A DNA stretch of 64,000 nucleotides from Prevotella illustrans (GTDB lineage: Bacteria > Bacteroidota > Bacteroidia > Bacteroidales > Bacteroidaceae), in NCBI RefSeq assembly GCF_017426725.1, contig NZ_JAERMS010000001.1:1-64000 (forward strand). The letters are read 5' to 3'. Made by a program: the position numbers and the translations under genes. The notes under the pieces were generated by a model. The model searched no databases. It saw only the letters and a list, made by a program, of their open reading frames with translations, and was not told the DNA's origin. Of the stretch, positions 516-53,320 are shown piece by piece (within the stretch, counting starts at the first letter, position 1; each line of letters starts with the position of its first letter).

Positions 516-1080
516 CGGACAGCAATATACAAGTATCAATCGATATCTGCTGAGCTATGAATTATCTTTACATATACCCTCAAAAAAGTAGCGTTATTCT
601 GAAAAAGAAAAGAGCCGGACGAAAATAAACGATTGTAGAGCAAGTTTATAAAACGCTGGCTATCAACGCATTGCGCTTTTCATAGTATTTCTCCTTCGTA
701 TTTTTACCATTAATAGCTATGCTTTTAGGCTGTAATCGTAGCCCTTTTAGTGGCTAAAAGCTATGGTTTAACGACGTAATCGCTGTGCTTTGAACCGATA
801 AAAGCATAGCTTTGGGCATAAAAGGATATGGAAATCGGCAAATCGAAGGATTTTTTTAGCGTGCCGGCAGCTAGATGAAGCGTTGCGGAAGTGTTAAAAT
901 CAAGTAGTTTTTTCTAACAAAATCATGGAAACACTGAATCAATATATTGAGCATGGGCTTACAAGTGATGAAAACAGCAGACTTCATCACCGACGCGGCT
1001 GTCCATCGCCCATAAACGATTGACAGATCTATATGACTTCAATACTTGCAGACTTGTCCTCGCAAATTATCAAGTGAGCC
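516..1080 (+). repeat. Dispersed intergenic element, copy 1 (contains 22-bp array 711-820)
   Basis: This fills the gene-free stretch between the transposase and fecR. From about 555 it matches copies at 17967, 38251, 44828 and 52905 nearly base for base: a left arm with TCAAAAAAGT and GAAAAAGAAAAGA, five 22-bp units at 711-732, 733-754, 755-776, 777-798 and 799-820, and a right arm with GCGGAAGTGTTAAAATCA. The left end is a decayed form of GGGGACAGGTTTACAAGTA (519-535) and the right end is its inverted counterpart (1043-1060), followed by GTGAGCC at 1074-1080. The right end runs into the fecR reading frame. No coding potential is seen. Confidence 0.85.
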
Positions 1081-2412: not shown

Positions 2413-5400
2413 ATGAGGAACAGTATTATACTTTTCTGTATGATAGCATGCCTGTTGGTAGCTCCCAAGGCTTATTCCCAACGCATCGGGAAACCTATTA
2501 CAGCCTCCAATGTTTCCATTGAACAGGTGTTGAATCAGATAGAAAAGGCTTCAAGCTACGTCTTTCTCTACAACAACAAGACGATCGACACTCGGAGAAT
2601 TGTCAGTGTCAACAGCAAAAACGGCGACATAAAGGAAATATTGAGCCATATTTTCCGAGGAACGAATGTCACCTATACTATCGTTGACAACCAAATTATT
2701 CTCTCTACGAAAAATCAGAAGAAAAGTCCCGCCGACGCGTTCACGCTCAAGGGCACGGTCAAGGACAGTCAGGGTGAACCGCTCATTGGCGTCAGCGTCA
2801 AGCGGAAAGGTAGCACTACGGGCGTTATCAGCGACATCGACGGCAACTTCAACCTGCAGGTGAATGATGGATCGCTGCTCGAAGTGTCCTACATTGGCTA
2901 CGCCACCAAGACCGTAAAGGTGTCGGGCAACCAGCCTATCACCATCACCCTGCAGGAAGACGACCAACTGCTCAACGAAGTAGTGGTTACGGCATTGGGT
3001 ATCAAGCGCGAGACCAAGGCCCTCACCTATAATGTTCAGGAACTCAAGGCCAAGGACGTGACCGGCGTGAAAGACGCCAACTTCATCAACAGTCTGGCCG
3101 GTAAGGTGGCCGGTGTCACCATCAACCAGAGTTCATCCGGCGTCGGTGGTTCTTCACGTGTCATGATGCGTGGTACCAAATCGCTGTTCGGCGAGAACAA
3201 CGCGCTCTACGTTTTGGACGGCATCCCCATGCAAGGACTTCGCACCAAACAGTCTGACAACTTCTACGAGGCCGTTGAAGTGGCCGATGGAGACGGTATT
3301 TCAAACATCAATCCCGACGACATCGAAAGCATGTCAGTACTTACCGGTGCTTCGGCCGCGGCTCTTTACGGTAACAAGGGTGCCAACGGCGTCATCCTGA
3401 TAACGACCAAGAAGGGTGCCATCGGCAAGCCGCGCGTAGCTTACTCTCACAACACGAGCTTCATGAGTCCGTTCGTGACGCCTCAGTTTCAGAATACTTA
3501 TGGTCGCAAGGACGGCGATTTCGCAAGTTGGGGAGAGAAACTCGAGAAGCCTTCTTCCTACAATCCGCTCGACTTTTTCCAAACAGGTTTCAACGTTATG
3601 AACTCTGTTGCGCTGTCGACCGGCTCGGAAACCAACCAGACACACATCTCTTTCGGCAGTGTCAACTCACAAGGTGTTGTACCTAACAACAAGTACAACC
3701 GCTACAACTTTACGTTCCGCAACTCCTGGGATGTCATCAAAGACGTTCTGAGCATGGACATGGGACTCTTCTATATCAAGCAGAACAATCAGAATAGTGT
3801 AGGCCAGGGCATGTACTACAACCCGTTGGTTCCCGCATATCTGTTCCCTCCCAGCGACGATATCAACAAGTATGTGGTCTACGAAATGTACAACGGCAGC
3901 CGCAACTTCAAGACCCAGAATTGGCCTTATCACAACCTGGGCTTGGGCATGCAGAATCCTTACTGGATTGTTAACCGTAATATGTTCAACACCGACCGCA
4001 ACCGTAACATCATCACACTGTCGGTGAAATGGAACATCACCGACTGGATGAACGTCATTGTCCGCGGCCGAACCGACCATGCTTATATGGAGTTCGAGCG
4101 CAAACTCTATGCCTCGACCGACGGTCTCTTTGCCAAACCGCAAGGCCACTGGATGACACAGGACGACAAGAACACTTCCGTCTATCTCGATTTCCTTGTC
4201 AACATCGACAAGAAGTTCGGCGAAGATTTCCGTTTCCTTGCCAACATCGGCGGCAGCTATTATGACGAGAAATATAAATCTCACACTTTCGAAGGTAACT
4301 TGGTAAGAGTTCCCAACTTCTTCCACTCTTCCAATATGTCACCCGCCGAAACGAGAACAACCCATTCAAACCTGCATACTCAGACGCAGTCGTTCTACGG
4401 CAAGGCCGAAGTCAACTGGAAGAACTTCCTCTTCATCGACGCCACGGGCCGCATCGACTACTTCTCCACCCTCTTGGGAACAGACAAGAACTATGTCTTC
4501 TACCCTTCTACCGGTCTGTCGGTGTTGCTGTCAGAAGCACTTCCTTTGCCCAAGAACATCATTTCGTTCTGGAAGATACGCGGTTCATACGCTCAAGTAG
4601 GTAATCCCCCATCCGCTTATCTGCCCTATACAATGGTAACACTGGCCAACGGCAATGCCACCGGTTCCAGCTTCACGCCTGCCAGTCACCTGAAACCTGA
4701 AATGACCAAGGCTTTTGAATTTGGTATGGATCTGCGCTTGTTCCACAACAAGCTGAACATTGCCGCTACCTATTATAATTCTAACACTTATAACCAGCTC
4801 TTCCGCTACAACTTGCCGCCAAGCACGGGTTATTCATACGCGTTTGAAAATGCCGGAAAGGTCAACAACTGGGGTGTCGAACTGACAGTGGGTGTTAACC
4901 AGAAGATAGGTCCTGTAGACTGGAACGCCAACCTTATTTACTCGCTCAACCGCAACGAAATCAAGGAACTGCTGCCCGAATACGTCACCGACCGCAAGAC
5001 GAACACCACCGTCAAGGCGCCTACGGAGTTTGAAGTATCGAGCGCGGAGTCCTATAAGATGATACTCAAGAAAGGCGGTACCATGTCGGATATCTACGCC
5101 AGCAAGCTCAAGCAAGACCTTCATGGCGACATTCTCTGCTCGGGTGGCGTGTCTAAAGACGACAATAACTTCATTAAAGTAGGTTCGGCAGCTCCTAAAT
5201 ACAACGTGGGTTTCCGCAATAGCTTCGCTTGGAAAGGCCTTGAGCTCAACTTCCTCCTCGATGCCCGTGTAGGCGGCGTTGTCGTTTCGGCCACACAAGC
5301 CCTGATGGATCAGTTCGGCGTATCGAAGCAGACGGCTGACGCAAGAGACAACGGCGGTGTTCGTGTCAACAACGGAAAGCTCAACGCCGAGCAATATTAC

Positions 5401-5688
5401 AGTGTAGTGGCCGGTGGAAAGACCGGTCTGTTGGCCCATTACGCCTACAGTGCCACCAATGTTCGTCTGCGCGAACTGTCATTATCCTACGATCTGCCCG
5501 CTTCATGGTTCAGAGACAAACTCCGCATGGGCATTTCGCTCACGGCTCACAATCTGTTCATGATTTACAACAAGGCGCCGTTCGATCCGGAATTGACAGC
5601 CAATACCGGAACCTATTATCAAGGTTTCGACTACTTCATGCCTCCCAGCTTGCGTAGCCTTGGTTTTGGATTGAAAGTGAATTTCTAA
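2413..5688 (+). CDS. SusC-like TonB-dependent receptor with STN domain
   Basis: Outer-membrane glycan importer of 1091 residues. Order: Sec signal peptide (1-22, ending AYSQ), secretin/TonB N-terminal (STN) domain about 30-100, carboxypeptidase-regulatory-like domain about 112-188 (LKGTVKDSQGEPLIGVSV), plug from about 195 (NEVVVTALG) through LYGNKGANGVILITTKKG, then a long barrel ending in the C-terminal Phe (KVNF). The STN domain is the part that talks to FecR in trans-envelope signalling, which agrees with the fecR gene 289 bp upstream. That 2124-2412 gap holds no gene or clear TAnnTTTG box, as expected if an ECF sigma drives it. SusD follows after 22 bp. The substrate is inferred from the neighbours to be an N-linked glycan. 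Confidence 0.95.
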   Translation: MRNSIILFCMIACLLVAPKAYSQRIGKPITASNVSIEQVLNQIEKASSYVFLYNNKTIDTRRIVSVNSKNGDIKEILSHIFRGTNVTYTIVDNQIILSTKNQKKSPADAFTLKGTVKDSQGEPLIGVSVKRKGSTTGVISDIDGNFNLQVNDGSLLEVSYIGYATKTVKVSGNQPITITLQEDDQLLNEVVVTALGIKRETKALTYNVQELKAKDVTGVKDANFINSLAGKVAGVTINQSSSGVGGSSRVMMRGTKSLFGENNALYVLDGIPMQGLRTKQSDNFYEAVEVADGDGISNINPDDIESMSVLTGASAAALYGNKGANGVILITTKKGAIGKPRVAYSHNTSFMSPFVTPQFQNTYGRKDGDFASWGEKLEKPSSYNPLDFFQTGFNVMNSVALSTGSETNQTHISFGSVNSQGVVPNNKYNRYNFTFRNSWDVIKDVLSMDMGLFYIKQNNQNSVGQGMYYNPLVPAYLFPPSDDINKYVVYEMYNGSRNFKTQNWPYHNLGLGMQNPYWIVNRNMFNTDRNRNIITLSVKWNITDWMNVIVRGRTDHAYMEFERKLYASTDGLFAKPQGHWMTQDDKNTSVYLDFLVNIDKKFGEDFRFLANIGGSYYDEKYKSHTFEGNLVRVPNFFHSSNMSPAETRTTHSNLHTQTQSFYGKAEVNWKNFLFIDATGRIDYFSTLLGTDKNYVFYPSTGLSVLLSEALPLPKNIISFWKIRGSYAQVGNPPSAYLPYTMVTLANGNATGSSFTPASHLKPEMTKAFEFGMDLRLFHNKLNIAATYYNSNTYNQLFRYNLPPSTGYSYAFENAGKVNNWGVELTVGVNQKIGPVDWNANLIYSLNRNEIKELLPEYVTDRKTNTTVKAPTEFEVSSAESYKMILKKGGTMSDIYASKLKQDLHGDILCSGGVSKDDNNFIKVGSAAPKYNVGFRNSFAWKGLELNFLLDARVGGVVVSATQALMDQFGVSKQTADARDNGGVRVNNGKLNAEQYYSVVAGGKTGLLAHYAYSATNVRLRELSLSYDLPASWFRDKLRMGISLTAHNLFMIYNKAPFDPELTANTGTYYQGFDYFMPPSLRSLGFGLKVNF

Positions 5689-10312: not shown

Positions 10313-10442
10313 TTTTCATCAGCTTTCATGCCGATTTTGTAAAGAAAACCAACTAAAAATACACACCTCTTTTTCACGCCATCCAGCGTGCCGAACGCCT
10401 TCCGACGCGCTTTTCAAACACTACAAAACAACTTACTCGCGC

Positions 10443-10574
10443 CCAAAACCATGCTTTCACACGCCAATATACCGACTTTCAGCTGCTCAAAGGGCTGCAA
10501 TTACAACATAAAAGGGCAGCTTTTGGCCGCTAATAGCTATGCTTTTACGGTCTCAAAGCATAGCTATTGCAAAG
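10443..10574 (+). repeat. Stand-alone 22-bp-period array (six units)
   Basis: Units start at 10443, 10465, 10487, 10509, 10531 and 10553. The fifth begins TAATAGCTATGCTTTT and the sixth TCAAAGCATAGCTATT, the same core as in the dispersed element but without its arms. The last two form a perfect 14-bp inverted repeat, AATAGCTATGCTTT (10532-10545) and AAAGCATAGCTATT (10555-10568), with a 9-nt loop. The rest of the gene-free stretch 10313-11030 shows only a candidate promoter box at 10819. Confidence 0.75.
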
Positions 10575-10818
10575 TACGCGCCCCTGTTTATCGCGTTAAA
10601 ATCCGTTAACTGTCTGATAATCAACTAATAATCCAAACATCATTTTCCTGCCGTTTTTTCGTCCACTTCCTTTTCTTTTTTGAAAACACGCACTTTTTTC
10701 GACCTGTTTGTCAATAAAATTCATAGTTATTTTCTATCAGTGGGGCTATCCGATGATTTTTACTCAATACCGCATCTAAATTCTTGCAAAACTCATCGAT
10801 TATACAAAAAAAACGCTT

Positions 10819-17948: not shown

Positions 17949-17966
17949 TTTTCTTATGTCTTTACC

Positions 17967-18358
17967 CTGAATAATCTTTACATATACCATCAAAAAAGTG
18001 GCGTTATTTTGAAAAAGAAAAGACTTGGGCGCAAATAAGCGATTTTAGAGCAAGTTTATAAGCCACTGGTTATCAACGCATTGCGTTTTTTATAGCATTT
18101 CTTCCTCACTTTTTTACCCTTAATCGCTATGCTTTCAGGCCGTAATCGCGGCCCTTTCGCCGACTAAAAGCTATGCTTTGAGCGTGTAATCGCTATGCTT
18201 TGAGCCGATAAAAGGATAACTTTGAGCATAAAAAGGTTTCAAAATCGGCAAAGCGAAGGACTTTTTCGGCGTGCCGGCAGTTAGATAGCGTGTTGCGGAA
18301 GTGTTAAAATCAGGTAGTTTTTTCTGACAAAAATCACGGATTCGCTGAATCAATATAC
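17967..18358 (+). repeat. Dispersed intergenic element, copy 2 (22-bp array 18121-18230)
   Basis: Fills the gap between susD and the end of recO. The left arm starts AATAATCTTTACATATACCA, units begin at 18121, 18143, 18165, 18187 and 18209, and the right arm ends at TGACAAAAATCACGGATTCG. Both GGGGACA-type ends are missing, so this copy is the core only. It has the same orientation as copy 1, so the two form direct repeats around the 1.0-17.9 kb glycan loci. Confidence 0.85.
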
Positions 18359-32387: not shown

Positions 32388-32519
32388 CATTATATATGCT
32401 TTCGACTCATCAAAGCTATGCTTTGAGGCGCCAAAAGCTATGCTTTTAGCGTGCAAAAGGGCTGCGATGAGGGGCTAAAAGCATATACGGTAAGGGGCAA
32501 AAGGAAGCCGAAAAGCTGT
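32388..32519 (+). repeat. Stand-alone 22-bp-period array (six units)
   Basis: Units start at 32388, 32410, 32432, 32454, 32476 and 32498. The second reads TCAAAGCTATGCTTTGAG and the third CAAAAGCTATGCTTTTAG; later units drift (TAAAAGCATATACGG) but keep the 22-bp register and the leading CAAAAG/TAAAAG. The arms of the dispersed element are absent. It sits in the gene-free 32200-32703 stretch between the LRR promoter and the end of the DUF3109 gene; the rest of that stretch shows nothing. Confidence 0.75.
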
Positions 32520-32703
32520 AAAGAAAAGAGAAGTCGTTGATTATCAGATAAATACAAACACGCGAAATTCTCGCGTATTTGGACGCGAAAGAAAAATTTT
32601 TCAGAATAACACAAGCAGCAAAGGGCTATTGTAAAAAAAACTGACGTTTATTCAGTATCCCACCACCTACCCGTCTTTCGAGCTATCTACCGCGCAGATT
32701 CTG

Positions 32704-38176: not shown

Positions 38177-38250
38177 ATATATTCTTTTGAAAACGACAAC
38201 GCCTGCACATCTTTTAACCCAAACATATATAAAACCACTTTTACACCGGT

Positions 38251-38768
38251 AAAATAAAATTAGCGGGGACAGGTTTACAAGTATCAACGATATCTGCCAC
38301 GCCCTGAATTATTTTTACATATACCATCAAAAAAGTGGCATTATTCTGAAAAAGAAAAGACTTGGGCGCAAATAAGCGATTGTAGAGCGAGTTTATAAAA
38401 CGCTGGCTATCAGCATATTGCGATTTTTAAGGTGCTTTCCTGTCGCTTTTTCACCTTTAATCGCTATGCTTTCAGGCCGTAATCGCGGCCTTTTTACCGA
38501 CTAAAAGCTATGCTTTGGCCGTGTAATCGCTGTGCTTTGAACCGATAAAAGCATAGCTTTGAGCATAAAAGAGCATCAAAATCGGCAAATCGAAGGACTT
38601 TTTCGGCACGCCGGCACTTAGATGACGTGTTGCGGAAGTGTTAAAATCTGGTAGCTTTTTCTGACAAAATCACTTGTAGGCTTGCACTAATGAGAAAGGG
38701 CTTACAAATGATGAGGCCGGAGATTTCGTCACTTGCAAACTTGTCCCCCACAAATGATCAGGTGAGCC
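38251..38768 (+). repeat. Dispersed intergenic element, copy 3 (best-preserved ends)
   Basis: The most complete copy. Left end GGGGACAGGTTTACAAGTA (38265-38283); right end, inverted, ACTTGCAAACTTGTCCCCC (38731-38749), followed by GTGAGCC (38762-38768). Units at 38458, 38480, 38502, 38524 and 38546 (array 38458-38567). The right arm holds GCGGAAGTGTTAAAATCT and TTTTTCTGACAAAATCAC. The paired ends look like terminal inverted repeats of a non-autonomous mobile element. No reading frame of note lies inside. Confidence 0.85.
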
Positions 38769-44827: not shown

Positions 44828-45292
44828 CTTGTAAGCCCATCCCAATTATATTGATTCAGCGGATCCGTGATTTTGTCAGAAAAAACTACCTGATTTTAAC
44901 ACTTCCACAACATGTCATCTAAGTGCCGGCACGCCGAAAAAGGCCTTCGATTTGCCGATTTTGATACCCTTTTATGCCTAAAGTTATCCTTTTATCGGCT
45001 CAAAGCACAGCGATTACACGGCCAAAGCATAGCTTTCAGCCGATAAAAGGGCCACGATTACGGCCTAAAAGCATAGCAATTAAAGGCGAAAAAGTGAAGA
45101 GAAAGCACCTTGAAAATCGCAATATGTTGATAGCCAGCGTTTTATAAACTTGCTCTACAATCGCTTATTTTCGTCCTTCTCTTTTCTTTTTCAGAATAAT
45201 GCCACTTTTTTGATGGTATATGTAAAGATAATTCAGGGCGCGGTAGATATCATCGATACTTGTAAACCTGTCCCCACTAATTTTCTACTCAC
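44828..45292 (-). repeat. Dispersed intergenic element, copy 4, inverted (22-bp array 44973-45082)
   Basis: Reverse orientation relative to copies 1-3. The left end reads TACTTGTAAACCTGTCCCC on plus (45257-45275). The five units occupy 45061-45082, 45039-45060, 45017-45038, 44995-45016 and 44973-44994. The right arm runs to about 44828, where the sequence departs from copy 3 and the GGGGACA right end is missing. It separates two SusC/SusD loci. Confidence 0.85.
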
Positions 45293-45342
45293 CCCATAAC
45301 AGGCTTACGACCCCATTAAGCAAAGACCTTACAAAACCGATC

Positions 45343-52519: not shown

Positions 52520-52570
52520 AGACATTCTCTCTTGTTGTTAAAATGATTATATATAATGTAGAAAAATTGA

Positions 52571-52608
52571 TACTTGTAAACCTGTCCCCATTAATTTTCT
52601 ACTGAGCC
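52571..52608 (-). repeat. Isolated end of the dispersed element
   Basis: The plus strand reads TACTTGTAAACCTGTCCCC (52571-52589), then TTTTCTACTGAGCC (52595-52608), the same left end found in copy 4 at 45257-45291. The body of copy 5 does not join it: about 300 bp of unrelated AT-rich sequence lies between, and the end is on the wrong side for copy 5. It is 52 bp upstream of susC, so it falls in or next to its leader. Confidence 0.7.
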
Positions 52609-52904: not shown

Positions 52905-53320
52905 CGGAAGTCTCCTGATTCATCATTTGTAAGCCCTTCCTGACTCCGTGCTTTTGTCAGAAAAAACTACCTGATTTTAACACTTCCGCAACATGTCATC
53001 TAAGTGCCGCCACGCGGAAAAATCCCTTTGCTTTGCCGATTTTGATGCCCTTTTATGCTTAAAGTGATGCTTTTATCGGCTCAAAGCATAGCGATTACCC
53101 CGCCAAAGCATAACTTTTAGTCGGCGAAAGGGCCGCGATTATAGTCTAAAAGCATAGTTATTAAGGGTAAAAAAGCGAAGGGCAAACACTCCAAAAATTA
53201 CAAACCATTGATAACCAACGCTTTATAAATCCGCTCTAAAATCGTTTATTTTCGCCCGACTCTTTTCTTTTTCAGAATAATGCCACTTTTTTAAGGTTGT
53301 TTGTAAAGTAAATTCAGAGT
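52905..53320 (-). repeat. Dispersed intergenic element, copy 5, inverted (22-bp array 53054-53163)
   Basis: Same orientation as copy 4. Units at 53142-53163, 53120-53141, 53098-53119, 53076-53097 and 53054-53075. The left arm ends near 53320 without the GGGGACA end; the right arm includes GTAAGCCCTTCC on plus and reaches about 52905. Beside it is a perfect 17-nt palindrome, CCGCCATAATATGGCGG (52891-52907). The stretch 52609-52890 shows no gene. Confidence 0.85.

Follow-up and report, generated by a model that had tools for sequence, protein, structure and literature searches.

Described repeat families and the present element

In the Bacteroidales, BrickBuilt of Porphyromonas gingivalis has been described as an intergenic MITE that is bounded by 12-nt ends of the GAGACCTTTGCA type, which are IS5-like, and that holds a 23-nt tandem array in its interior (PMC4596501). 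The family described here, from the draft genome of Prevotella illustrans, resembles it in being an intergenic MITE of the same order with internal short repeats and with many copies that miss one or both ends, and differs from it in its ends, which a by-eye comparison with Table 2 of that paper places outside the GAGACCTTTGCA type, and in its interior, where a few short units at a spacing of 22 or 44 nt are found instead of a 23-nt tandem array (PMC4596501). PINSR, a repeat of the Prevotella intermedia/nigrescens group, is described as 188 bp long, intergenic, without inverted ends and present in 177-184 copies (PMC4755523). It is likewise high-copy, lineage-restricted and non-coding, and it is distinguished from the present family, in a comparison by description and not by sequence, by the inverted ends that are present here (PMC4755523).

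With bacterial MITEs more broadly the family shares a length of about 500 nt, the non-coding character, the inverted ends, the target duplication and the many intergenic copies, whereas it departs from them in the length of its ends (about 40 nt), in that no cognate insertion sequence was found, and in that its core, in diverged form, also occurs end-less. It is also unlike the REP/RAYT elements, as there was no match to the Y1 transposase (Y1_Tnp, PF01797) in the species' own draft genome among the 9 candidates scored.

The element in question, referred to below as copy 3, is very probably a decayed member of a high-copy MITE family that is seen in this species only and was spread by a transposase encoded elsewhere. 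The MITE is a well-known kind of element and the family is new: no published description of it was found among the literature matches listed, and PINSR is set apart from it by its description.

Ends, extent and erosion of copy 3

Copy 3 lies within the window (the whole stretch of 64,000 nt that was analysed), flanked by the end of one gene and by the start of a second, opposite-strand gene, and there is no ORF of at least 100 aa between 38139 and 38911, an interval that spans it. Its parts are as follows.

38235-38251, plus strand: short repeat CCACTTTTACACCGGTA, unrelated, in place of the outer left end (17-mer that recurs beside or near copies on other contigs)
38256-38768, plus strand: copy 3, the whole element as preserved, without the outer left 10 nt (own-genome DNA search; 29-copy alignment)
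38256-38287, plus strand: left terminal inverted repeat, preserved inner part (32 nt, 94% complementary to 52567-52598; left-end scan)
38303-38673, plus strand: 371-nt core common to the copies (nhmmer 427.4 bits, copy 3 itself being among the copies used to build the core model)
38458-38538, plus strand: three TAAAAGCTATGCTTT-type units within the core, at a spacing of 44 and 22 nt (15-nt matches)
38729-38768, minus strand: right terminal inverted repeat, closing ...GTGAGCC (end scan)

The sequence-only reading had proposed that this element has imperfect inverted ends like those of a MITE, and both of the ends that it quoted are present exactly, the left one at 38265 and the right one at 38731. 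The left 19-mer has, as had been said, two further occurrences (45257 and 52571), both on the minus strand, and no others within the window, and the recurrence of the right end near 1043 corresponds to a 43-nt match on the minus strand (1038-1080) with 5 mismatches. Between the two arms, 16 of 18 positions are paired; when the same geometry was placed at random in the window 3000 times, this level was never reached, and the best placement gave 15. The resemblance noticed between GTGAGCC and GGCTCA has a simple basis, in that both are the outermost bases of the element's two ends: the right end of copy 3 closes with ...GTGAGCC at 38768, and the left end at 52569-52608 opens with GGCTCA on the minus strand. 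The inverted ends therefore stand as proposed; their limits do not, since the ends of the family extend about 10 nt beyond those drawn earlier.

Against the family left end, copy 3 has mismatches at 8 of 40 positions, 7 of which fall within the first 10 (38246-38255), so that its outer left 10 nt have been replaced, beside the second short repeat CCACTTTTACACCGGTA (38235-38251). A CATATATAAAACCACTTTTACACCGGTAGAATAAAAAC-like form of this second repeat also lies beside or near MITE copies on contigs C59, C61, C69 and C116 of the same assembly. No target duplication is seen at copy 3, because its left tip is gone.

Terminal inverted repeats and target-site duplications of the family

The family ends were defined from an alignment of 29 copies and from 59 distinct end sites. 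The left end opens with GGGTCAGTAG, GGCTCAGTAG or near variants of these, and the right end, in inward reading, with GGCTCACTTGATC or near variants; the consensus sequences of the two agree at 30 of 40 positions, which none of 20000 shuffles equalled. With up to 3 mismatches allowed, the left pattern occurs 35 times and the right pattern 24 times, as compared with 0 for reversed control patterns, and within their first 70 nt the 59 end sites continue into ordinary core or known spacer, run into a contig end or are solo, the one promising exception being C41 (see below). In copy 3 and in the copies on C60, C96 and C59 an outer tip is lost and the inner parts of both ends are kept, and these four were excluded from the duplication test, which was made on the nine copies with both tips intact.

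Perfect 8-bp duplications were found immediately outside the ends in three of these nine copies (C63, ATAAAGAA; C46, GTATATAC; C138, GAATGTAG), while 72 mismatched pairings used as a control gave 0 perfect duplications and a maximum agreement of 5 of 8. The check for target-site duplications that had been suggested along with the MITE reading is thus answered positively at the level of the family. In the remaining six copies the flanking 8-mers agree at 0 to 6 of 8 positions. Two of these, C62 and C84, both without a duplication, have the same flanks on both sides and are therefore not independent, which leaves eight independent sites. For seven long-form or one-ended places, copies 1 and 3 included, a duplication partner of the right-hand 8-mer was sought beside a left end and none convincing was found.

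In several copies, among them those on C61, C62, C83, C84 and C93, an additional segment of about 45 nt precedes the right end and sets them apart as a right-end subtype. This segment is present in five of the six copies without a duplication (C61, C62, C83, C84, C93) and in none of the three with one, and the subtype may have spread by another route. Separately, two copies (C62:145.4-146.4k and C93:1.8-3.0k) have several hundred extra nucleotides, mutually similar and with GTAGGGGCGTGATTCATCACG-type repeats, between core and right end, and the one on C93 holds an additional partial core.

At C62, C84 and C9 the MITE copy is itself enclosed by an outer element with ends CAATAGTGTCCTAAATA. Direct repeats of 9 bp lie outside this outer element at C62 (GTCAAAAAT, with one extra base intervening) and at C84 (AACTTTTTT) and are absent at C9; from the outer element and its flanking repeats, the MITE at C62 and C84 seems to have been moved as cargo within it. 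The left arm of the outer element also occurs next to an rve-type transposase gene on C116. On the same contig a MITE copy truncated on its right side directly abuts a truncated transposase gene of the rve type that belongs to another element, and the sequence on the far side of that copy resembles, by eye, an end of that same rve-type element.

Copy number, distribution and age

The window holds further copies and pieces of the family, which vary in what they retain of the ends.

541-1080, plus strand: copy 1, right end kept (1038-1080), left end decayed
10333-10723, minus strand: highly diverged core without inverted ends (nhmmer 61.2 bits, model positions 3-369)
17966-18336, plus strand: copy 2, core whose left boundary is the alternative one of the long form, TATGTCTTTAC; inverted ends not seen
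32395-32610, minus strand: diverged core fragment with short units (nhmmer 50.9 bits, model positions 38-253)
44867-45294, minus strand: copy 4, left end kept (45255-45294), right end lost
52569-52608, minus strand: solo left end, no core after it
52948-53317, minus strand: copy 5, core with no adjoining inverted ends

In the 3.09 Mb draft assembly of 138 contigs, a 505-nt query gave at least 40 long matches and 3 short ones, a count that is a lower bound, as scoring was confined to 40 of the 205 first-look candidates. On the contig to which the window belongs (269,672 nt), the 371-nt core profile found 10 full copies (374-433 bits) and 4 diverged long ones (61-104 bits), plus fragments, with 0 matches on the reversed contig; by extrapolation from this one contig, the full copies in the whole genome would number about a hundred. 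All 10 full copies are intergenic with respect to predicted ORFs, with an overlap of at most 66 nt, at copy 1, and one of the 4 diverged long copies overlaps an ORF, by 13 nt.

The tree built from 42 near-complete cores has the shape of a star: its terminal branches have a median length of 0.084 changes per site and 25 of its 39 inner branches are open (support under 80), and it is from this star-like shape that an old burst followed by drift is inferred. The end types are scattered over the same tree, requiring 13 changes against a shuffled mean of 16.5, and 4 of 200 shuffles were as low.

Search for the mobilising transposase

The sequence-only reading had taken copy 3 for a non-autonomous element moved by a transposase encoded elsewhere. 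The first part of this holds for the family as a whole; as to the second, the transposase was searched for and none was found in the draft assembly or the sampled genomes. No autonomous transposon with the same ends was found in the species' own draft assembly or, by its ends, in the sampled genomes. The draft genome gave 0 matches to each of the transposase families Y1, ISL3, IS256 and IS1595, in a search that covered these four families; as positive controls, matches were found for Y1 in 5, ISL3 in 4, IS256 in 6 and IS1595 in 1 of 14 named genomes.

Among 59 other genomes of the genus (up to 2 mismatches) and 392 others of the order (up to 3 mismatches), none contained the ends. In 84,980 species genomes, from which the own genome was possibly left out, a long exact end pattern had 0 matches and a degenerate 20-mer had a single one, located in an ORF of a MAG from the Pirellulaceae, which looks like chance. 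There were also 0 matches of the ends in viral contigs and 0 of the element in plasmids. A comparison of the whole element with 300 other genomes of the family, with two candidates scored per listed genome, gave short weak matches in four (G314, G222, G236 and G309).

One contig, C41, was considered as the autonomous partner: it opens inside a left end and continues into unfamiliar sequence, which was first read as an insertion sequence. That reading was dropped, as a similar interior on C59 leads via about 300 nt of filler into an ordinary core, and from this continuity C41 is taken as a long form of the MITE. The other side of C41, sought by its expected duplication, gave no match, and its end gave a single weak match of 27 nt (E 0.2) among plasmids.

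Given these negative searches, the partner would have been lost, would be unassembled, or would belong to a family with diverged ends; probably, the transposase has been lost from the genome or is missing from the draft assembly.

The core as a probable older repeat

On the window's contig, three diverged copies (10333-10723, 144758-145121 and 163397-163756) cover nearly the whole core model and have no inverted ends, and a fourth (67757-67999) covers two thirds of it. These diverged cores retain both borders as well as the GGAAGTGTTAAAAT block and the units of the AAAGC...GCTTT form. In the same-genus loci of G314, G222 and G236, the core profile gave partial matches, from 35.8 down to 10.9 bits, with 0 in reversed controls of the same-genus loci and 0 in the G309 locus. 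At the G314 locus, short units are followed by a GAAGTGTTAAAAT block, in the order seen in the MITE core, and the G236 match is weak enough that it may be due to chance.

From the diverged end-less copies on the same contig and the weak partial relatives in same-genus genomes, the core seems to be older than the ends; that it is genus-wide is a suggestion only. A more specific proposal, put forward tentatively and rather doubtful as it stands, is that the core, as an intergenic element as old as the genus and maintained on its own, was captured between transposon ends in this species and then amplified, so that the MITE would be a resident repeat turned mobile and not the product of an internal deletion in an insertion sequence.

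Some diverged cores have a direct repeat like TTTTCTTGACAAA at both borders (10333-10723; locus L086 of G314). As scored against 500 shuffles, the core-border direct repeats of two diverged copies were matched by 9 and 15 shuffles, those of a third by 411 and those of copy 3 by 452, and they are thus suggestive in two of the four copies tested and are not claimed as a feature of the core. Two loci of G222 (L087 and L091) hold elements that resemble each other, in which the large central hairpin is a different one and a module of about 60 nt, AATAAGCGATTTT...AAAACGCTGACAATCAGC, is shared.

Model of spread and alternative explanations

The family has terminal inverted repeats, a duplication of constant length (8 bp), a short body without a transposase gene and many dispersed copies, and it is the inverted ends, the 8-bp duplications and the dispersal that identify it as a MITE family. 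In the model proposed here, a transposase from outside the element would recognize the inverted ends of about 40 nt (GGGTCAGTAG.../GGCTCACTTG...) and join the element into target sites with an 8-bp stagger, mostly intergenic ones, and the family would have spread in this manner in an old burst. Afterwards, as is observed, copies drifted, lost ends and became joined to other repeats. The cargo between the ends would be an older intergenic repeat of the lineage, as suggested by the end-less copies in the own genome and, weakly, by those of the genus.

It has to be noted that one or both ends are missing from many copies, and that end-less diverged cores exist on the same contig and, weakly, in same-genus genomes, all of which would also be expected of a PINSR-like dispersed intergenic repeat that spreads by a route without transposase ends and has its inverted ends incidentally. 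This explanation is improbable, as it does not account for end patterns that were found 35 and 24 times or for the perfect duplications immediately outside the ends of three copies. The same three duplications argue against movement in single-stranded form by a Y1 (RAYT) transposase, as in a REP-like element, because Y1 enzymes would not be expected to leave target duplications. Such movement would fit the GTAG within the left end and the strong strand folding (z = -4.0), and is, as the own draft genome gave no match to Y1_Tnp, the least probable of the readings considered.

A further possibility is that the repeat is under selection as a regulatory leader or a small RNA ahead of SusC/SusD-type genes. 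Copies 4 and 5 do precede TonB-dependent receptor genes, and copy 1 precedes a long ORF (2413-5688), and the fold of a single copy, with the z of -4.0 given above, could be taken in the same sense. The consensus fold of 31 cores is, however, weak (-8.8 kcal/mol, with a covariation term of -0.9), and the Rfam matches in the window amount to one tRNA. The orientation relative to the neighbouring genes is mixed among the 10 full copies, copy 2 lying between convergent genes of the SusD and RecO types, and copy 3 has the end of one gene on one side and the start of an opposite-strand gene on the other. An RNA role is thus not supported, and the regulatory explanation is very unlikely.

Implications

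The MITE family set out above adds to the known ones a family that has target duplications of 8 bp and whose ends were not encountered in any of the other genomes sampled. Its copies are also seen to break draft assemblies, several contigs of the present one ending inside them. The core that it carries can be traced as an older, end-less repeat, and this bears on the origin of MITE interiors.
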